From Streptomyces sp. NRRL S-87 (GTDB lineage: Bacteria; Actinomycetota; Actinomycetes; Streptomycetales; Streptomycetaceae), in contig NZ_JOGB01000098.1 in the NCBI RefSeq assembly GCF_000719335.1, forward strand, positions 1 through 13,315: DNA of 13,315 nt. The letters are read 5' to 3'. The notes beneath the pieces were generated by a model. That model saw nothing but the letters and a program-made list of their open reading frames with translations. It had not been told where the DNA came from and made no database searches. Made by a program: the position numbers and the translations under genes. The first letter of the stretch is position 1; each line of letters begins with the position of its first letter. Below, piece after piece: positions 4,989-13,315 of the stretch.

Positions 4989-5104
4989 GGGCAAAGAGAG
5001 CCGCCAAGTCGACCTACTACGGCGGTTTCATCAGCGAAGATAGAGCGTGACCCCTGCCGACGGGCACGGGCTGACGGAACTACCCAACAGGGGCGGTGAG
5101 TTAC

Positions 5105-5413
5105 ATGATCCTGGCGGCCGAAAAAGGCGACATCACCACCATCATCGGCGGAATCGCCCCGAACTGGGGCCCGTTCGGCAGTCTCGGCAACGAAGCGAAG
5201 GTCATGATCGAGGTGGTCATGGCCGTGGCCATCCTCCTCTGCCTGGGCATCGCCATCTGGGGCGCCGCCAAACAGCGCATCGGCGCCACCGCGCTGCGCG
5301 ACACCTTCAGCGCCGAACAGGGCAAGGGCCTCATCGTGGCAGGCCTGACCGGCGTCTTCATCATCGGATCGCTGGGCACCCTGTTCACCATCGTGTACGG
5401 GATGGCGGTCTGA
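5105..5413 (+). CDS. Small two-helix membrane protein, possible VirB2-like pilin subunit
   Basis: A 102-residue protein with two hydrophobic helices (about 33-54 and 75-98). They are joined by a polar loop with basic residues (GAAKQRIGATALRDTFSAEQGKG, given as two parts: 53-66 and 67-75). The N-terminal 30 residues are amphipathic, with no clear signal-peptidase site. Size, two helices and position as first gene of a T4SS-like operon recall VirB2/TrbC pilins, but there is no decisive motif; this is inference. The ATG at 5105 is preferred, with GGTGAG four bases and GGGG eleven bases upstream. A GTG three codons earlier (5096) is in frame but sits only two bases after the G-rich run. A 217-base gap with a GC hairpin separates it from the next gene, so it may be expressed at a different level. 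Confidence 0.75.
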   Translation: MILAAEKGDITTIIGGIAPNWGPFGSLGNEAKVMIEVVMAVAILLCLGIAIWGAAKQRIGATALRDTFSAEQGKGLIVAGLTGVFIIGSLGTLFTIVYGMAV

Positions 5414-5428
5414 GCGCCCCCTAGCGGT

Positions 5429-5442
5429 CCGCGCCCGCGCGG
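5429..5442 (+). other. GC-rich inverted repeat after the first operon gene
   Basis: CCGCGC-CC-GCGCGG lies 16 bases after the stop of the small membrane protein. It would form a very stable stem (a few inner pairs must open), but has no T tract. It might slow transcription or protect the upstream message. The rest of the 217-base gap is C-rich and holds no gene I can support. Confidence 0.3.
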
Positions 5443-5630
5443 CCCGCGCCCCCTCCCGTACGCCACCCAGCCCGGCACCCGACCCGACCCCGACCCCCGC
5501 CCCCTTCCGCCTGCCCGTCCGCCCACTGGCTGAGGTTGCGTTTCCTGATGACGACTCACCACTCCGCGCCCATGCGGGAACCAGCACGGCTACCGTCGTA
5601 CGCCGACACGGCTGAGGGGGCGGGCGCGGC

Positions 5631-6503
5631 ATGAGCCAGGACACGGGCTACGGCGCGGGGCAGGAGCGGTACGACGACGGGTACGGCTACGACGACGGCA
5701 CCCGGGTCGGCGGCACGGGCCAGACCCGCACCCGCCTGCCCGACGCCCCCGGCGGCGACCCCTACGGCTCTGGCCGCAAGCCCGCCCGGTCCTCGCGCGG
5801 CCTCGTGACCGTCGTCGGGGTCGTCGTCCTGCTCGTCGCCGCCATCGCGTTCGCGAACCAGGGCGGCGGCGGCAAGAAGTCCGACGGCCCCTCGGACGCC
5901 AAGGCCCCGGTCACCTCCGCCACCGCCCCCACCGGCGAGCGCCCCGTGGCCGGCCGGCACAACGACGTGCCCATGGGCTTCGGCCACACCGAGCAGGGCG
6001 CCCAGTCGGCGGCGGCCAACTACGCCGTCGTCCTGGGCTCGGAAGCCATGTACGAGACCCCGCGCCGACACCGCATCCTCGCCGCCGTCGCCGACGAGGG
6101 CAGCGCGGCCGGGCTCCAGTCCGCGTACGACGCCACGTACACCAGCGGCCTCTTCGAGCAGATCGGCCTCACCGCCAACGGCACCGCCCCGGCCGGCGCC
6201 ACCTTCGTCAGCCGCACCTCGCCCGTCGGCGCCAAGGTGCTGCGCTACTCGGACACCGCCGCCGACGTCGACGTGTGGTGTCTTGAGCTGTTCGGCCTCA
6301 CAGGAGAGAAGTCCACCAAGCCAGTCACCAGTGCCTGGTACACGCTCACCGTGAAGCTGAAGTGGAACGGGTCCGACTGGAAGGTGCTCAACACCTCCCA
6401 GCGCACCGGCCCCACCCCAGTCACTGGCGACAACCCGGTCTCCAGTTCCGGTGACATCGCCGGGGCTGTCAACGAATTCGGAGGGTTCACCTATGCCCGG
6501 TAG
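5631..6503 (+). CDS. Single-pass membrane protein with extracytoplasmic domain, VirB8-like candidate
   Basis: A 290-residue protein. Residues 1-55 are a Tyr/Gly/Asp-rich cytoplasmic segment, 57-76 a single transmembrane helix, 77-110 a flexible linker. From about 117 there is a folded extracytoplasmic domain. It starts GHTEQGAQSAAANYA, has a helical part to about 170, and ends in strands (WYTLTVKLKWNGSDWKVL, 236-253). A cytoplasmic tail, one helix and a small alpha+beta domain is the layout of VirB8/TcpC scaffold proteins (NTF2-like fold), but sequence identity to VirB8 is not visible, so the role is inferred from architecture and neighbours. The ATG at 5631 has GAGGGGG ten bases upstream. 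The 3' end overlaps the next gene by 11 bases, implying translational coupling. Confidence 0.8.
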   Translation: MSQDTGYGAGQERYDDGYGYDDGTRVGGTGQTRTRLPDAPGGDPYGSGRKPARSSRGLVTVVGVVVLLVAAIAFANQGGGGKKSDGPSDAKAPVTSATAPTGERPVAGRHNDVPMGFGHTEQGAQSAAANYAVVLGSEAMYETPRRHRILAAVADEGSAAGLQSAYDATYTSGLFEQIGLTANGTAPAGATFVSRTSPVGAKVLRYSDTAADVDVWCLELFGLTGEKSTKPVTSAWYTLTVKLKWNGSDWKVLNTSQRTGPTPVTGDNPVSSSGDIAGAVNEFGGFTYAR

Positions 6504-7848
6504 CCCCCGCACGCCCGGCGGCCTCCCCAAGCTTCTCGGCACCCTCGGCGCGGTGCAAGCCGCAGTCCTCCTCTTCGCCGCCCGCGCCTCGGCCGCACCC
6601 ACCCCTGACGCCAGCCCGGCCGCCACCACGCCGCCCGAGCAGTGCCGACTGCTCCGGGGCCAGGTCCGGCTCGTCTGCGAGGGCAATCTCCCCGGTGGCA
6701 AGGTGACCGCACCACCGCCCGGACAGGTGCCGGGCGGCCCGGGCGACAGCCTCGACCCCCTCTCCTCCCTCGCCAAGGGCTGCGCCGACGCCGGCGCATG
6801 GATCGTCGGCAAGCTCAGCGGCGCGGTGAAGTCCACCGCCACCGTCGACTTCACCAACGCCGCCTTCCTGCGCCAGTACGCCGTCGTGTTCGCCGCCTCG
6901 ACCGTCCTGACCCTGGTCCTGTGGCTGCTGGCCGTCGCCAAGCGCGCCATCCGCGGCGTCCCCCTGACCACCGCCCTCTCCGAGGCCATCGGCTTCCTCT
7001 GGCTGACCGTCCTGGCCTCCGCCTTCACGCCCCTGATCCTCTACACCGTGGTCTCGGCGACCGACAGCGTCACCGAGGCCGTCGCCAGCGGGGCGGGCGG
7101 CAACACCGACGTGTTCTTCGGGTCCTTCGCCGAGGCCCTCAAGAAGGGCGAGGACATCGGCGGCGGACCGGTCATGCTGATCGTCGTCGCCCTCGTCACC
7201 GTGCTGGCCGCCGGCGTCCTCTGGCTGGAGCTGGTCATCCGGGCCGCCCTCCTCTACGTCGGCGCGCTGCTGGGCACCGCCGTGTACGCCGGCCTCGTCG
7301 ACCGGAACATGTGGGGGCACGTCCGGCGCTGGGCCGGGATCATGATCGCGGTCATCCTCGTCAAACCGGTCATCGTCATCGTCCTGGGCCTGGCCGGAGC
7401 GCTCGCCGGCGACGACGGCCCCGACGCGTTCTCCGCCGTCGTCTCGGGCCTCGCCATCATCCTCCTGGCGATCTTCGCCTCGGCGATGATCTACCGCTTC
7501 GTACCCGGCTTCGGCGACGAGATCTCCGCCGCCCGCACCAACCGCAAGCAGGCCACCGACGGGGCCCAGGCCGCGGCCGTCATCAGCTCCCCGGCCTCCC
7601 TCGTCTCCCAGGGCATCAAGACCCACAGCAGCCGCGGCGGCGCCCACCGCCCCGGCGGCGGCGAAGCCCGCCCCGCCAACCCGCTCTCCGGCGGCGTGGC
7701 GGCCCACAGCAGCCGGGGCTCCTCCGGCGGGACCGGGGTCGGCGGCGGAACTGTCCCCTCCGCCGCACCCCCGCCGCGCAGCTCCGGAGTCAGCACCCCG
7801 CACACCAGCAGGACCACCGGCACAGGCACAGGAGGTGACGGGCGTTGA
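6493..7848 (+). CDS. Polytopic membrane protein, TrbL/VirB6-like T4SS channel component
   Basis: A 451-residue protein. A signal-peptide-like segment (13-35, ending ARASAAP) is followed by a Pro-rich stretch and two cysteines (51, 62). Five to six membrane helices then follow: about 128-150, 161-187, 226-245, 246-268, 280-304 and 314-336. From 340 a hydrophilic Gly/Ser/Pro-rich tail begins, with a twice-repeated HSSRG. The helix cluster with long loops and a charged tail fits TrbL/VirB6, which builds the inner-membrane channel of T4SS. I believe Streptomyces homologues carry the placeholder name SCO6881 family, but this is from memory. The ATG at 6493 has GGAGGG at 6480-6485, seven bases upstream, inside the preceding gene. 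The stop overlaps the next start (TTGA). Confidence 0.85.
   Translation: MPGSPRTPGGLPKLLGTLGAVQAAVLLFAARASAAPTPDASPAATTPPEQCRLLRGQVRLVCEGNLPGGKVTAPPPGQVPGGPGDSLDPLSSLAKGCADAGAWIVGKLSGAVKSTATVDFTNAAFLRQYAVVFAASTVLTLVLWLLAVAKRAIRGVPLTTALSEAIGFLWLTVLASAFTPLILYTVVSATDSVTEAVASGAGGNTDVFFGSFAEALKKGEDIGGGPVMLIVVALVTVLAAGVLWLELVIRAALLYVGALLGTAVYAGLVDRNMWGHVRRWAGIMIAVILVKPVIVIVLGLAGALAGDDGPDAFSAVVSGLAIILLAIFASAMIYRFVPGFGDEISAARTNRKQATDGAQAAAVISSPASLVSQGIKTHSSRGGAHRPGGGEARPANPLSGGVAAHSSRGSSGGTGVGGGTVPSAAPPPRSSGVSTPHTSRTTGTGTGGDGR
7831..7838 (+). promoter_or_regulatory. Ribosome binding site deciding a TTG start
   Basis: GGAGGTGA is a full anti-16S match and lies six bases before the TTG at 7845. It selects this rare start codon, whose last two bases begin the TGA stop of the upstream gene. 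A GTG inside the site belongs to another frame and is not a gene. Confidence 0.8.
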
Positions 7849-9404
7849 CGACCCAGTCCCATCAGATCCACCCGGTCGCGCCCCGCCGCACGTATCTCAT
7901 CGGCCGCGCCCGGCCGAACGCGATCGTCGGCAAGAACCGCGAGACCGGCGAGATCGCGCTGATCGTCTTCGGCGCGTTCCTCGGGATGATGAGCGGACTG
8001 CTCGTCCCCAACCTGATGCTCCGCATCGTCTGCCTCGCCGGCTTCCCGGTCATCGCCCTGGCCGCCGTCTACGTGCCCTACCGGCACCGCACCTTCTACA
8101 AGTGGTTCGAGATCAACCGCAGCTACAAGCGCACGCTGCGGCGCGGCACCACGTACCGCTCGACCGCCATGGAGGCCGGCACCCGCGGCGACGGCCGCGA
8201 GATCGAGGTCGGCCCGCCGCCCGGCATCGGCCGGATCAGCTGGCTGGCCGCCCCCTTCGGCCCCGACGAGATCGCCGTCCTGCTGCACGCCGACCGGCGC
8301 ACCGTGACCGCCGCCATCGAGATCGAGGGCCCGGGCGTCGGCCTGCGCGACAGCGAGGACCAGGAGGCCCTCGTCGACCGGTTCGGCACCCTCCTCAAGC
8401 ACGTGGCCAACGGCGACGGCTTCGTCACCCGCCTGCAGATGCTCGCCCGCACCCTGCCCGCCGACCCCGACGCGCACGCCAAGGACGTCGCCCAGCGCGG
8501 CGACGCGCACGCCCCGGGCTGGCTCCGCGACTCGTACGACCAGCTGCAGTCCATGGTCTCCACCTCCAGCGAGCAGCACCGCGCCTACCTCGTCGCCTGC
8601 ATGCACTACACCCGCGAGCTGGCCGCCGAGGCGCACGCCATGGCCCGCGCCGCCACCCCCCAGAAGGGCCGCCGCCTCGACAGGGACGCCGGCCTCGCCG
8701 TCGTCATGGCCCGCGAGCTCACCGACATCTGCGCCCGCCTCGCCGAGGCCGACATCCGCGTCCGCCAGCCGCTGGGCCAGGGCCGGCTCGCCTCCCTCGT
8801 GCACTCCATGTACGACCCGGACCACCCCATCGACCACATCCAGGCCATGACCAAGCGCAACGCCTGGCCGGCCGAGCTGGACGCCGTCGAACCCACCTAC
8901 CTCCAGGCCAAGACCCGCGAGTCCCAGACCCGCGCCCCCTGGTGCCACGCCACCGCGTGGGTCAAGGAGTGGCCGATGACCCCGGTCGGCGTCAACTTCC
9001 TCGCCCCGCTCCTGGTCCACACCCCGGACGTGATCCGCACGGTCGCCGTCACCATGGACCTCGAACCCACCGAGGTCGCGATCGAGCGCATGCTCACGGA
9101 GAAGACCAACGACGAGGCCGAGGCCTCCCGTGCCGCCAAGATGAACCGCACGGTCGACCCCCGCGACATCGCCGCCCACGGCCGGCTCGACCAGAGGGGT
9201 GAAGATCTCGCCAGCGGTGCGGCGGGAGTCAACCTGGTCGGGTACATCACGGTGTCCTCGCGTTCTCCCGAAGCCCTCGCCCGCGACAAGCGGACCATCC
9301 GGGCCTCGGCGGGCAAGTCGTACCTGAAGCTGGAGTGGTGCGACCGCGAGCACCACCGCGCGTTCGTCAACACCCTGCCGTTCGCCACCGGCATCCGACG
9401 CTAG
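7845..9404 (+). CDS. PrgI/VirB3-like membrane segment fused to VirB4 N-terminal-like domain (SCO6880-type protein)
   Basis: A 519-residue protein. Two close helices (about 36-55 and 59-78) near the N-terminus, after RTYLIGRARPN and before YRHRTFYKWFEINRSYKR, look like a PrgI/VirB3 unit. From about 130 a soluble domain follows (EIAVLLHADRRTVTAAIEIE, 141-160; EDQEALVDRFGTLLKHV, 171-187). The last 55 residues (GYITVSSRSPEALARDKRTI ... HHRAFVNTLPFATG) closely resemble the end of the VirB4/TraC N-terminal domain just before the ATPase domain. There is no Walker motif. The ATPase domain is in the next gene, so VirB4 appears split. Relatives are, from memory, called SCO6880 family. It starts with TTG in a TTGA overlap with the preceding gene, and ends 18 bases before the ATPase gene. 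Expected at the cytoplasmic membrane as the docking part of the motor. Confidence 0.85.
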   Translation: MTTQSHQIHPVAPRRTYLIGRARPNAIVGKNRETGEIALIVFGAFLGMMSGLLVPNLMLRIVCLAGFPVIALAAVYVPYRHRTFYKWFEINRSYKRTLRRGTTYRSTAMEAGTRGDGREIEVGPPPGIGRISWLAAPFGPDEIAVLLHADRRTVTAAIEIEGPGVGLRDSEDQEALVDRFGTLLKHVANGDGFVTRLQMLARTLPADPDAHAKDVAQRGDAHAPGWLRDSYDQLQSMVSTSSEQHRAYLVACMHYTRELAAEAHAMARAATPQKGRRLDRDAGLAVVMARELTDICARLAEADIRVRQPLGQGRLASLVHSMYDPDHPIDHIQAMTKRNAWPAELDAVEPTYLQAKTRESQTRAPWCHATAWVKEWPMTPVGVNFLAPLLVHTPDVIRTVAVTMDLEPTEVAIERMLTEKTNDEAEASRAAKMNRTVDPRDIAAHGRLDQRGEDLASGAAGVNLVGYITVSSRSPEALARDKRTIRASAGKSYLKLEWCDREHHRAFVNTLPFATGIRR

Positions 9405-9422
9405 CTGGAGGGCAGACCCGCC

Positions 9423-10841
9423 ATGCGAGATCCGCTGTCCGCGCTGACGGACGCCTTCACCAGCTTCCTCTTCGGGAAGGTCGAGACGACCCGGCTGCCG
9501 GTCCGTACCTCCACCGGCCAGGCCCAGGCCGTCTACCTGCCCACCGCCGCCCCCGGCCTCGGCGACTCCGGCGTCATCATCGGCCGCGAGGTCTACAGCG
9601 GCAAGGGCTACATCTACGACCCCTTCCAGCTGTACGGGCAGCAGCTCCCGGCCCCGCACTGGCTGGTGCTCGGCGAGTCCGGCAACGGCAAGTCCGCGCT
9701 GGAGAAGACCTACGTCCTGCGCCAGCTGCGCTTCCGCGACCGCCAGGTCGTCGTCCTCGACGCCCAGGGCGAGGACGGCGTCGGCGAGTGGAACCTGATC
9801 GCCCAGGAGCTGGGAATAACTCCCATCCGCCTCGACCCCGTCGCCGCCGCCGACGGCGGGATCCGCCTCAACCCCCTCGACCCGGCCATCACCACCACCG
9901 GGCAGCTCGCGCTGCTGCGCACCATCATCGAGGTGGCGATGGGCCACGGCCTCGACGAGCGCGCCGGCTTCGCGCTCAAGGTGGCGCACGCGTACGTCAA
10001 CGAGACGATCCTGGACCGCCAGCCGGTCCTCACGGACATCGTCGAGCAGCTGCGCCACCCGGAGGCCGCGTCCGCGGAGGCCATGAACGTCGACATAGAC
10101 GATGTCCGCGCCTGGGGCCTGGACGTCGCCCTCGTCCTGGACCGGCTGGTCGACGGCGACCTGCGCGGCATGTTCGACGGCCCGACCACGGTCGGCATCG
10201 ACCTCGACGCGCCGCTGATCGTCTTCGACCTGTCCCACATCGACCGCAACTCGATCGCCATGCCGATCCTGATGGCGATCGTGGGCGTCTGGCTCGAGCA
10301 CACCTGGATCCGCCCGGACCGGAAGAAACGCATCTTCCTGGTCGAAGAGGCCTGGCACATCATCAACTCGCCCTTCGTCGCACAGCTGTTCCAGCGGCTG
10401 CTGAAGTTCGGGCGCCGGCTCGGCCTGTCCTTCGTCGCCGTCGTCCACCACCTCTCCGACGTCGTCGACGGCGCCGCGGCGAAGGAGGCGGCGGCCATCC
10501 TCAAGATGGCCTCCACCCGGACCATCTACGCCCAGAAGGCGGACGAGGCCCGCGCCACCGGCCGCGTCCTCGGCCTGCCCCGCTGGGCCGTGGAGATCAT
10601 CCCGACCCTCACCCCGGGCATCGCCGTATGGGACGTGAACGGCAACGTCCAGGTGGTGAAACACCTGATCACGGAAGCGGAACGGCCCCTTGTCTTCACG
10701 GACCGGGCCATGACAGAGTCCTCGGCACCCCAACCGGCGCTCCCCGAGGACGTCCTCGCCGCCGAACGCGAAGCGGAGGAGAGAGCGATGCTCATCGAAC
10801 GCCACAGGAACGGCGAATCCGCGGAATCCACGGTGGCCTGA
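9423..10841 (+). CDS. VirB4-like ATPase (separate C-terminal ATPase domain)
   Basis: A 472-residue soluble ATPase. The lead-in (GVIIGREVYSGKGYIYDPF, 50-68) is what precedes the P-loop in VirB4/TraC. Walker A is GESGNGKS (84-91), Walker B is IFLVEEAW (304-311, Glu308/Glu309), and motif-III-like VVHHLSD (340-346) follows. ADEARATGRVLGL (373-385) and the closing strands (GIAVWDVNGNVQVVKH) complete the fold, so catalytic residues are intact. VirB4 hexamers energise T4SS assembly and transfer. At 472 residues it lacks the N-terminal half of VirB4 (usually about 800 in total), which is encoded by the gene just upstream. The ATG at 9423 has GGAGGG (9407-9412) ten bases before it. The stop is one base from the next start. 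Of the operon's calls this is the firmest. Confidence 0.93.
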   Translation: MRDPLSALTDAFTSFLFGKVETTRLPVRTSTGQAQAVYLPTAAPGLGDSGVIIGREVYSGKGYIYDPFQLYGQQLPAPHWLVLGESGNGKSALEKTYVLRQLRFRDRQVVVLDAQGEDGVGEWNLIAQELGITPIRLDPVAAADGGIRLNPLDPAITTTGQLALLRTIIEVAMGHGLDERAGFALKVAHAYVNETILDRQPVLTDIVEQLRHPEAASAEAMNVDIDDVRAWGLDVALVLDRLVDGDLRGMFDGPTTVGIDLDAPLIVFDLSHIDRNSIAMPILMAIVGVWLEHTWIRPDRKKRIFLVEEAWHIINSPFVAQLFQRLLKFGRRLGLSFVAVVHHLSDVVDGAAAKEAAAILKMASTRTIYAQKADEARATGRVLGLPRWAVEIIPTLTPGIAVWDVNGNVQVVKHLITEAERPLVFTDRAMTESSAPQPALPEDVLAAEREAEERAMLIERHRNGESAESTVA

Positions 10842-10842
10842 C

Positions 10843-12594
10843 GTGGCGCGGGACGACCGGGAACGGTACGGCCAGGAACGGCGCGCACCCGCCCGGGAGC
10901 AGACCCGGGGCATCCCGGACGCCCTGCTCGTGGGCCTGCTCGCCTTCCTCCTGGGCCTCACCGTGATGGTGTGGTCGGCCACCGGCCTCGCCGCGCTCTT
11001 CGCGCGCGGCGCATGGCCGGCGGGAGTCACCTTCACGCGCACGCCCATGGCCCTGCACGCCCTGCTCACCGCCCCGCACGACCTGGCCCGCGCCTGGCCC
11101 CACACCGATCCGGCGGCCCTGTCGGGCTGGGGGCTGTTCTGGGGCATCCTCGTCAGCGAACTGCTGGTGCTGTTCGTCCTGACGGTCTTCGCCATCGGCG
11201 TCCTGGCCCGCACCAAGGCCCGCCGCGCCCGCATCCGCGCAGAGCGGCAGCACCCCAAGGACCCGGTGCCCGCCCCCACCCACGACCCCGGCCCTGGCCC
11301 CGGCCCCGGCCCCGTCGAGCCCCCCGCCCGCACCTCGCCCGAGCCCGCGGCGGTACGCCCATCCGCACCCCGCACCTCCGACGCCCCCACCGCCGCCGCA
11401 CCGGACGCGGACCACGTCCCCGTACCCACCGCCCCGGCTGACCCGGCTGACCCGGCCACCGAACCGGCCCCGGCCCCCGAACCGGCGGCCCCGGCCCCCA
11501 CCCCGCGCCGGGAACCGCCCGCCCCGCGCTCCGAGCCCACCCAGGACGCCTACCGCTACGGCTTCGGCTACGCCCCCCGCAGCACGGCTCCCGCCGACCC
11601 GCGGTCCGCCGACCCGCAGTCCGCCCACCCGCAGCCCGTGGCACCCCACGCCGACCCGGCCCCCGGCGCCCGCCTCGCCTACGCCGCCCCCGCCGACCGC
11701 CGCCGCGCCGCGGCCCACCGGATCGCGGAGGCCGAGGGGGCCGTACTCGTCGTGACGTCCTCCCCCGCCCTGTGGGCCGAGACCAAGGACGCCCGGGCCA
11801 AACTCGGCCCCGTCCTCCTCTACGACCCCTCGCACCTGTGCGACACCCCGGCCCGCATGCACTGGCACCCCGGCACCGGCTGCACCGACCGCGACACGGC
11901 CGCCTCGCGCGCCATCGCGCTGCTGGCACCCGTACGCCCGCAGTCCCGCATCGACGCGGCCGTCGCCGACACGGCGGAAACGCTCCTGCGCAGCTGGCTC
12001 CACGCGGCCGCCCTCGACGACCGCCCGTTCAAGCAGCTGCACCGCTGGGCCCTCGGCTCCGCCGCGCACGAGCCCGTACGCATCCTGCGCACCCACCCCA
12101 AGGCCGCCCCGGGCACGGCCGGTGAACTCGAGAACGCGCTCACCGCCCACCCCGAGCGACGCGAGATCGCCCAGGAGCTCACCGCCCGGGCCCTGTCCGC
12201 CCTCTCCTCGATCCACATCCGCGAGTCCTGCACACCGAATCGAACGGATTCGCTCACGCTCGCATCATTCGCCGACGAGGGGGGCACCCTCTACCTGGTG
12301 GGTGAGCCAGTCGAGGATCCCCGGACCTCGCCCGGAGCGATGCCCCTGCTCACCGCACTCGCGTCAAGCGTGGTCGAGTACGGCCGCCGCGTGGCCGTAC
12401 GGTCATCCGCCGGTCGGCTCGGCCCACCACTCACGCTGGTCCTAGACGACGTGGCGGCGGTGGCCCCGATCCCCCAACTCCCGGAGCTCCTCGCCGACTC
12501 CGGACCGGCGGCCCTCCCCGTACTGGCCCTCCTCCGCAGCCGCGAGCAGGCCCGCTCCCGCTGGCCCGCCCTCGCCTCCGAAGCCCTCCTCTGA
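10843..12594 (+). CDS. VirD4/TraG-like coupling-protein relative lacking the P-loop
   Basis: A 583-residue protein. Two helices (about 26-55 and 99-122) with an intervening external loop match the N-terminal anchor of VirD4/TraG. Residues 137-275 are a Pro/Ala-rich disordered stretch, where the Walker A should follow. Residues 298-362 resemble the part just after Walker A in coupling proteins (GAVLVVTSSPALW, GPVLLYDP, then MHWHPGTGC). Residues 530-550 (LTLVLDDVAAVAPIPQLPEL) align with Walker B, but the usual catalytic DE is DD. No GxxGxGK(S/T) occurs anywhere in the protein, and the chain ends soon after SREQARSRW, so it is also short at the C-terminus. It probably binds substrate or partners without hydrolysing ATP; inference. 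The GTG at 10843 follows the upstream stop by one base, with only a weak GGTGG before it, suggesting coupled translation. Confidence 0.8.
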   Translation: MARDDRERYGQERRAPAREQTRGIPDALLVGLLAFLLGLTVMVWSATGLAALFARGAWPAGVTFTRTPMALHALLTAPHDLARAWPHTDPAALSGWGLFWGILVSELLVLFVLTVFAIGVLARTKARRARIRAERQHPKDPVPAPTHDPGPGPGPGPVEPPARTSPEPAAVRPSAPRTSDAPTAAAPDADHVPVPTAPADPADPATEPAPAPEPAAPAPTPRREPPAPRSEPTQDAYRYGFGYAPRSTAPADPRSADPQSAHPQPVAPHADPAPGARLAYAAPADRRRAAAHRIAEAEGAVLVVTSSPALWAETKDARAKLGPVLLYDPSHLCDTPARMHWHPGTGCTDRDTAASRAIALLAPVRPQSRIDAAVADTAETLLRSWLHAAALDDRPFKQLHRWALGSAAHEPVRILRTHPKAAPGTAGELENALTAHPERREIAQELTARALSALSSIHIRESCTPNRTDSLTLASFADEGGTLYLVGEPVEDPRTSPGAMPLLTALASSVVEYGRRVAVRSSAGRLGPPLTLVLDDVAAVAPIPQLPELLADSGPAALPVLALLRSREQARSRWPALASEALL

Positions 12595-12639: not shown

Positions 12640-13191
12640 TCAGCGGACGAGGACGTGCTCCAGTTCCCTCTCCGCCGGGTCGGTGGGGGCGGGGGCGGTG
12701 ACGCCGGTGGGCTCGAAGCCGAAGCGCCGGTAGAAGCCGACGGCCCGGTGGTTGTCCTCGTGGACGTACAGGCGCACGCGTACGGGCGCCGGCTCCCGCA
12801 GCTCCCAGCACCAGCCGACGGCGGCCTCGAAGAGGCCCTCGATCAGACCGGTGCCCCGGCTCTCCTGCCGTACGAAGACGCCGACGATCACCGCCTGGTC
12901 CTGCGCGGGCTCGCCGTCCCCGAGCAGCGTCGGCACGCCGGCGGGCTCGACGAGGACGGTCACGGTGCCGTGCCAGACCCCGTCGGGGCCCTCGGCGACG
13001 AACTGCCGTACGGCGTCGCTGTCGGCGGCCCGCTCGGTGCGCTCCTGCCAGAACAGGTCCGGCTGGGCCGAGGCCTCCTCGTACGTCTCGTGGAAAGCGA
13101 GCCGGGCCGCGGGGTCCCGCAGGGCCTCCAGCCGCAGCTCCTTGACCTTCTTCCACTCGTCTGCGCGCACGGCGCGAATCACATGATCCAT
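12640..13191 (-). CDS. GNAT family N-acetyltransferase
   Basis: A 183-residue soluble enzyme of normal single-domain GNAT length. It opens with IRAVRADEWKKVKELRLEAL, has central strands leading to the acetyl-CoA loop VFVRQESRGTGLIEGLFEAA (105-124), and closes with NHRAVGFYRRFGFEPTG (137-153). The acceptor substrate is unknown. The ATG at 13191 is chosen for family fit. TAGGAT ends six bases upstream, giving either a leaderless start or a modest AGGA ribosome site. It is transcribed toward the T4SS-like operon (convergent) and lies just downstream of the rrn terminator on the same strand, so it probably needs its own promoter. Confidence 0.9.
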   Translation of the reverse strand: MDHVIRAVRADEWKKVKELRLEALRDPAARLAFHETYEEASAQPDLFWQERTERAADSDAVRQFVAEGPDGVWHGTVTVLVEPAGVPTLLGDGEPAQDQAVIVGVFVRQESRGTGLIEGLFEAAVGWCWELREPAPVRVRLYVHEDNHRAVGFYRRFGFEPTGVTAPAPTDPAERELEHVLVR

Positions 13192-13275: not shown

Positions 13276-13315
13276 GTTCGGCGGCGTCCTACTCTCCCAC
13301 AGGGTCCCCCCTGCA
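13276..13315 (-). rRNA. rrf: 5S ribosomal RNA, 3' end (partial)
   Basis: Read on the minus strand, the last 40 bases match the 3' part of actinobacterial 5S rRNA, including GGGACCCUGUGGGAGAGUAG and the end GGACGCCGCCGAAC. The 5' two thirds, and presumably the 23S and 16S genes, lie to the right of the window. The exact 3' end may differ by one or two bases. Confidence 0.92.

Follow-up and report, generated by a model that had tools for sequence, protein, structure and literature searches.

The cmd operon of Streptomyces as a probable domesticated type IV secretion system without a working coupling ATPase

Why would a bacterial chromosome carry what looks like a conjugation machine, among ordinary genes and with no relaxase in its vicinity? 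The question is raised by a stretch of DNA from Streptomyces sp. NRRL S-87 (the window, 13,315 nucleotides: bases 1-13315 of contig C98 in a 255-contig draft genome of 8.15 Mb; window GC content 73%), in which an earlier reading of the sequence alone (the sequence-only reading) had recognized a chromosomal six-gene machine resembling a type IV secretion system (T4SS). Calling of open reading frames on the window placed six of them, A to F, all on the + strand, at 5096-12594. As judged from sequence, the set is almost certainly the orthologue of the cmd operon, which is already published; its part list, its status as an order-wide core set and the decay of its coupling ATPase are new. The best overall explanation, to which a probability of roughly 0.6 is assigned, is that the cmd machine is a conjugation-type T4SS that was captured by the chromosome, has been inherited vertically and is kept for development. 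Taken on its own, the statement that it is a domesticated T4SS without a working coupling ATPase is very probable.

The cmdABCDEF operon (SCO4126-4131) was described as six co-transcribed genes that encode the ATP/GTP-binding protein CmdB and five membrane proteins (Xie, Zeng and Qin 2009, PMC2782261). The window likewise holds six co-directional genes for five membrane proteins and one ATP/GTP-binding protein. Genes A and B lie 217 bases apart, B and C overlap by 11 bases and C and D by four, and gaps of 18 bases and one base separate D from E and E from F, so that the gene order and the close joining of the last five genes were found as the sequence-only reading had given them. The GC content at third codon positions is 0.90-0.97 in all six. 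The identification with cmd rests on this shared layout, on a lysine position, on a primer match and on SCO4131, which is listed elsewhere with two predicted transmembrane (TM) domains, as in A. Gene number and layout are the same in S. coelicolor, where the ATPase gene takes the same place and Lys90 lies in Walker A (PMC2782261); set against the CmdB Lys90 and Lys404 contexts (ESGNGxSALE and VQVVxHLIT), the protein of gene E has the lysine of GNGKS at residue 90 and that of VVKHLITE at residue 413. A printed CmdB primer matches gene E at 10645-10675 with three mismatches in 31, and for the second printed CmdB primer no DNA match was obtained within three mismatches. Gene order would make A the orthologue of CmdF, B of CmdE, C of CmdD, D of CmdC, E of CmdB and F of CmdA. 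As a side observation, the primers PcmdBK90A and PcmdBK404A look swapped in the methods of PMC2782261, and their codons, in the printed sequences compared with E (the second frame by eye), read Arg and Glu and not Ala.

Two Streptomyces plasmids (that of Streptomyces sp. NBC_00015, locus L084, and S. alboflavus pMDJK44.2, locus L085) and locus L127 in genome G095 carry counterparts of the complete set in unchanged order, 27-49% identical per protein, and these are referred to below as the mobile sets. Conservation was followed across the 80 Streptomyces loci that rank highest by similarity to E among 587 confirmed; because they were picked in this way, they are no neutral sample of conservation.

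The motor of the set is a VirB4 ATPase that is split into two chains, a new observation. Gene E (cmdB, SCO4127; 9423-10841, +; 472 amino acids) encodes the C-terminal ATPase half: it matches AAA_10 (E-value 7e-13) and the VirB4-like structure 4ag5 (E-value 3.5e-6), the NCBIfam VirB4/TraC models match under their cut-offs, and a Walker A motif, GESGNGKS (9672-9695, +), places its lysine at the same residue number, 90, that Xie et al. mutated in CmdB. This motif (G-x(2-4)-G-K-[ST]) is present in E at 80/80 loci. Gene D (cmdC, SCO4128; 7845-9404, +; 519 amino acids) belongs to the SCO6880 family (NF042935, E-value 3e-55) and combines a two-helix TM hairpin (residues 34-76, 7944-8072, +; model helices 34-53 and 57-76) with a VirB4 N-terminal domain recognized by its fold (residues 121-519, 8205-9401, +). 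No match was obtained for the hairpin on its own; some D homologues carry the database name 'PrgI family protein', and the start of D may occupy the VirB3/PrgI place. The VirB4 and VirB4 N-terminal parts of the sequence-only reading were borne out by these family, structure and fold matches. The ATPase motifs it had reported are present in E (Walker A) and missing from F.

Gene B (cmdE, SCO4130; 5631-6503, +; 290 amino acids) encodes an extracytoplasmic protein with a single TM helix (residues 57-75) and a DUF8175 domain (PF26526), which is taken for B and its homologues from precomputed annotation and was not reported by the family scan of the window carried out here. In the structural model of B, 139 of 290 residues have a predicted local distance difference test (pLDDT) value of ≥90, and residues 118-265 (5982-6425, +) are modeled as a VirB8/NTF2-fold domain. 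B is thereby predicted to have a VirB8-type fold and to supply the VirB8 component of a VirB core, which is new and agrees with the role that the sequence-only reading had drawn from architecture. Gene C (cmdD, SCO4129; 6493-7848, +; 451 amino acids) encodes a polytopic protein with a signal-like N-terminus and about six TM helices that is 38-41% identical to its homologues in the mobile sets; its homologue in L085 matches TrbL_4 weakly (E-value 0.031, under the cut-off), and C is a candidate TrbL/VirB6-like channel. Gene A (cmdF, SCO4131; 5096-5413, +; alternative ATG at 5105, the start used in the sequence-only reading; 105 amino acids) encodes a small protein with TM helices at residues 32-60 and 78-105 that is 39-46% identical to the products of the same-position genes of three mobile sets. 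A pilin-like model matches the A homologue of L084 under the cut-off (E-value 0.053), and topology and position make A a putative VirB2-like subunit. Another genome (G213:C1:9338174-9338473) holds a second strong copy of A, 88% identical to that of the window, far from the cmd operon.

Gene F (cmdA, SCO4126; 10843-12594, +; 583 amino acids) encodes a protein with two TM helices (residues 27-45 and 102-120), a long alanine- and proline-rich linker that is barely conserved across the Streptomyces loci, and a degenerate VirD4/TraG ATPase domain (residues 301-583, 11743-12591, +) that lacks the P-loop upstream and ends just after the motif QARxRW. None of 77 Streptomyces copies of F (eight cut by a contig end and six more shorter than 410 amino acids) contains a Walker A motif as defined for E. 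A looser pattern, GK[STA], occurs in six of the 77: two have GKT at residue 182, within the linker, and the other four have GKA, and by eye no case stands in a P-loop context. The coupling protein with Walker A that marks a conjugative T4SS is, in other words, not what F encodes. The remnant is 29-31% identical to four plasmid or plasmid-like coupling proteins, which keep the P-loop (GPMGSGKT, GPTGSGKT or APPREGKT). In the alignment with these proteins, F matches from just after the P-loop site to QARxRW, where F of the window and four other aligned Streptomyces copies end, whereas the mobile proteins extend further. In the family scan, TraG-D_C matches two plasmid proteins at E-values of 4e-23 and 1e-24 and F of the window at 0.041, under the cut-off. 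A relative of F from the same order (L119) has a TraG-D_C match of 3.6e-7, a loop reading GPARSGKA and a C-terminus that extends on.

Outside Streptomyces, F was followed at 28 loci of other genera (L100-L115, L117, L119-L126 and L129-L131; not a random sample, as L129-L131 were added after L112 had been found without F). F is absent behind E in 12 of them, its membrane part stands alone in two (L100 and L103), and some of the remaining copies keep a longer C-terminus. Eight genomes without F at the locus were searched whole: at an E-value ≤0.001 five contain no relative of F, and the other three encode one away from the locus, 32-34% identical; in a ninth genome, which has F at the locus and served as the control, F was recovered. 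Judged from these sequences, the coupling ATPase of the set appears to have decayed, a new observation, and the earlier view of F as a VirD4-like ATPase does not hold in the sense of a working VirD4, since the P-loop is missing and the protein is lost or reduced in relatives. The loss of the ATP-binding motif from the DNA-loading part suggests that the machine is kept for a different job in the envelope. At two loci, short 16S rRNA-like matches lie within a shortened F or directly after it (L022:12138-12413 and L030:12252-12369; 62.6 and 78.3 bits) with two Ns (L022) and 101 Ns (L030) nearby, which are probably assembly joins.

The published mutants describe what the machine is needed for. Loss of cmd genes causes aberrant branching and collapse of aerial hyphae and poor septation, and the mutants form 8% and 6% anucleate spores versus 0.1%; according to Xie et al. 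the main effect falls in early aerial growth, and the segregation defect may therefore be secondary to branching and collapse (PMC2782261). Developmental defects were also reported for S. lividans and S. avermitilis mutants, three species in all, and the transfer of an SLP2-derived plasmid showed no significant change (data not shown in PMC2782261). In cmd mutants actII-orf4 is transcribed earlier, and the blue pigment actinorhodin is overproduced in the cmdB, cmdD, cmdE and cmdA-F nulls, with little or no overproduction in the cmdA, cmdC and cmdF nulls. SCO4127-4131 (cmdBCDEF) also appear in a separate transposon study, as down-modulators of actinorhodin; SCO4126 does not occur in the main text of that study as far as it was available. 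The cmdA null sporulates like the wild type (PMC2782261), which fits a decayed coupling ATPase.

The distribution of the set was analyzed in genome samples of the genus, family, order and class that were drawn by taxonomy. E was found in 101/101 genomes of the genus and, at an E-value ≤1e-60, in 121/121 genomes and 17/17 genera of the family (a small number of them fragmented or interrupted by stops), and D in 80/80 genomes of the order, 15 of which belong to two other families and match at 71-75%. In the class sample E was found at 1e-60 in 29 of 296 genomes, 28 of them Streptomyces and the other, G221, the only positive among the 268 genomes of other genera, a line under which the distant mobile relatives score; a profile of A at 1e-5 gave the same tally. 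The exceptional genome, from another family and with a contamination estimate of 6%, carries A to E at 43-78% identity (G221:C878, L118), by contamination or by real transfer. In the drafts G198:C23 (L116), G168:C4 (L117), G534:C2 and G121:C183, E (D in G534) is split in two or interrupted by in-frame stops, through assembly error or through decay. The 80 loci nearest by E are all from Streptomyces, with one titled solely 'Actinobacteria bacterium', and tblastn found A at 74, B at 77, C at 79 and D, E and F at 80 each; the complete set in the same order and strand is present at 73 of the 80.

Order-wide presence, together with a tree of E in which the rows group by family and order, is read as vertical inheritance. 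In this tree the cmd rows exclude four of five mobile relatives; it was made without L086, where the matched segment contains a stop, and without L117, and its label 'cmd_family' wrongly takes in L116, of the same genus. Across the 80 loci the median identities are 95% for A, 51% for B, 72% for C, 92% for D, 93% for E and 63% for F. The ratio of nonsynonymous to synonymous substitution (dN/dS) was calculated for 25 of 425 equal-length pairs, picked for closeness, 22-25 of which were usable per gene. The median was 0 for A (24 pairs), 0.047 for E, 0.084 for D, 0.32 for C, 0.37 for B and 0.40 for F, with 0.185 for the ATPase remnant of F. A, D and E show strong purifying selection, and the set is a core set of the order, the latter being new.

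Because the plasmids and L127 carry homologues of the six genes in the same order, the source was most likely a conjugative set of their type, whose capture, supposing that it happened once, would predate the split between the order's sampled families. The mobile sets share the six genes and their order with cmd but have a coupling protein of their own with a P-loop and a longer C-terminus, both of which F of the window lacks. Xie et al. had noted that SLP2.21-23 resemble SCO4127-4129 (PMC2782261). The same plasmids weaken an argument of the sequence-only reading, that Streptomyces use TraB rather than a T4SS and the set should therefore not transfer DNA, since Streptomyces plasmids hold homologous six-part sets. 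Closely behind the set of L084 lies an annotated CATRA conflict system (CASPASE/TPR, CHAT; L084:17327-23899).

The surroundings of the operon are those of an ordinary chromosomal region. A GNAT acetyltransferase gene that is not part of the six-gene system (12640-13191, -; PF00583, E-value 8.7e-10) has a homologue in 57 of the 80 loci, and the family scan identified the other neighbors as an acyl-CoA thioesterase, a pentapeptide-repeat protein and a YunG-alpha/beta hydrolase; a LysE-type transporter and a second GNAT protein were judged by eye. The 3' end of a 5S rRNA gene is truncated by the end of the window (13276-13315, -; RF00001 positions 80-120, 17.3 bits, E-value 0.23, under the gathering score). 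The same 27-base end is found in 41 of 136 loci and continues at L028 into full 5S, 23S and 16S genes; as the weak match is repeated in relatives and leads there into a full operon, the adjoining rRNA operon is accepted on sequence as real, and it and the ordinary neighbors are as the sequence-only reading had described them. No integrase or relaxase family was found among the ten window proteins scanned or in ten neighbor genes of three longer relatives, and no cell-wall hydrolase was seen beside the set in the window, whereas hydrolases lie beside both plasmid sets (M23 in L084, lytic transglycosylase/C40 in L085). The earlier statement that no relaxase or hydrolase is visible stands for the locus; the genome has relaxase-family matches on contigs C8 and C23 (PF03432) and C10 (PF08751). 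The genome also contains a distant second set (G000:C8:61000-80000, L128), with D at 25%, E at 32% and a relative of F with APRSGKT at 26% identity, which lies about 22 kb from the PF03432 match at G000:C8:92537-92842 and is probably an integrative conjugative element (ICE). An ICE would be expected to show an integrase nearby and a patchy distribution; at the window no integrase family was found and every genome of the genus, family and order samples is positive, in support of the original description as a chromosomal machine and not an ICE or plasmid.

What, then, does the machine do? Without a working coupling ATPase, the usual way of loading DNA is not open to a VirB core. Envelope assembly based on A is the likeliest specific mechanism, as A is the most constrained of the proteins and VirB4 is the sole motor left; as a mechanism it is put forward tentatively, with somewhat less than even confidence. 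During aerial growth the D/E motor would act on a platform of C and B and insert or polymerize the almost invariant A, which would form a ring, a pore or a short filament within the aerial hyphal envelope, with F, where kept, serving as a non-catalytic adaptor. Loss of the machine would derange aerial branching and septation, with disturbed chromosome segregation and timing of antibiotic production as secondary consequences. The secretion or envelope role, rather than DNA transfer, that had been proposed from the sequence is favored by the published developmental phenotype and the unchanged plasmid transfer; the working VirD4 that accompanied it is not retained, and the TraB argument is weak. 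The wider view that in a bacterial order a conjugation machine has become a core organelle of development, VirB-only, with VirD4 dead or deleted and a split VirB4 that builds a near-invariant VirB2-like structure, is more tentative still.

Instead of building a structure, the VirB core might, without a coupling ATPase, carry a protein or peptide with a role in morphogenesis out of the aerial hyphae, by a logic like that of Ptl or the Brucella VirB system. Protein-exporting T4SSs without VirD4 are described (PMC12857230), B is a single-TM VirB8 protein with a large outer domain, and the pleiotropic cmd phenotype could stem from a missing signal. However, no candidate substrate gene lies in or constantly beside the operon (the neighbor gene of the window found most often, GNAT2, is in 57/80 loci, some loci ending earlier; substrates encoded elsewhere were not searched for), and this explanation is unlikely, if still worth carrying. 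Xie et al. proposed that CmdB drives DNA through a type IV-like channel, which they said should be investigated, during sporulation (PMC2782261). A pump of this kind, segregating chromosomes or moving DNA within the mycelium, would explain the anucleate spores, agrees with the RecA/FtsK-like motor these authors predicted and draws on six genes that all have mobile relatives. It is nevertheless improbable, since its DNA-loading subunit has no P-loop or is absent, the segregation defect may be secondary and SLP2-derived plasmid transfer is unchanged. A device for DNA uptake or exchange, like the archaeal Ced/Ted systems or ComB of H. pylori, T4SS derivatives without VirD4, would follow the same minimal logic of chromosomal VirB2, VirB4 and VirB6, and E has a weak match to the CedB model (E-value 0.00045; 19 bits, where the cut-off is 700), but the published phenotype is developmental and the chance of this reading is slight. 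A remnant of an ICE or plasmid that selection does not maintain, for which the six plasmid homologues in the same order might speak, can be set aside in view of the order-wide presence, the purifying selection on A, D and E, the lack of an integrase or relaxase among the proteins scanned near the locus and, above all, the mutant phenotypes in three species.

Several observations count against a captured machine kept for development and built around A. Neither A nor C has a match among solved structures, and no structure or complex shows polymerization of A. In two of the 29 class-search genomes that have A (G192, loci L134 and L135; G210, loci L132 and L133), A (78-88% identical) lies on another contig than B to F, so the VirB2-like subunit may be separable from the operon; the F match of G192 is broken into two. 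Purifying selection on the ATPase remnant points to some role for F in Streptomyces, where it appears to be a constrained protein though not a P-loop ATPase. The relaxases on other contigs mean that one could act in trans. The long branch of L085 in the tree of E is unplaced and cannot be set outside the cmd group, and the differing pigment overproduction of the cmd nulls fits one simple machine poorly.

T4SS biology rests largely on mobile elements and pathogens, and cmd is by comparison a core set of the order that holds Streptomyces; the terms cmd, CmdB and sporulation do not occur in the main text of a 2025 T4SS nomenclature review. Since cmd mutants already tie the machine to sporulation and antibiotic timing and natural lineages present the coupling ATPase as a losable part, the operon offers a non-pathogenic, genetically tractable setting in which the function of a VirB apparatus that lacks VirD4 can be studied. 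The study of cmd in S. coelicolor, in the portion available, links only CmdB to VirB4 and does not describe the VirB8 protein, the split VirB4, the order-wide spread or the loss of the coupling ATPase (PMC2782261). T4SSs that lack VirD4 (Ptl, Brucella VirB and ComB) serve protein export, including two-step export, DNA uptake and adhesive pili (PMC12857230). In these systems, as proposed for cmd, the VirB machine works without a coupling ATPase, but they belong to diderm bacteria and lack VirD4 wholly, whereas cmd often keeps one without a P-loop. The archaeal Ced/Ted DNA importers are, like cmd, chromosomal domesticated T4SS derivatives with VirB2, VirB4 and VirB6 homologues, and differ in being archaeal, in importing DNA and in that VirB8 is not mentioned in the accessible account (PMC9905601). 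The T4SS of Patescibacteria is also chromosomal and of monoderm type, mostly without a relaxase and thought to be co-opted, but belongs to another phylum and has its role in epibiotic growth (PMC12102498).

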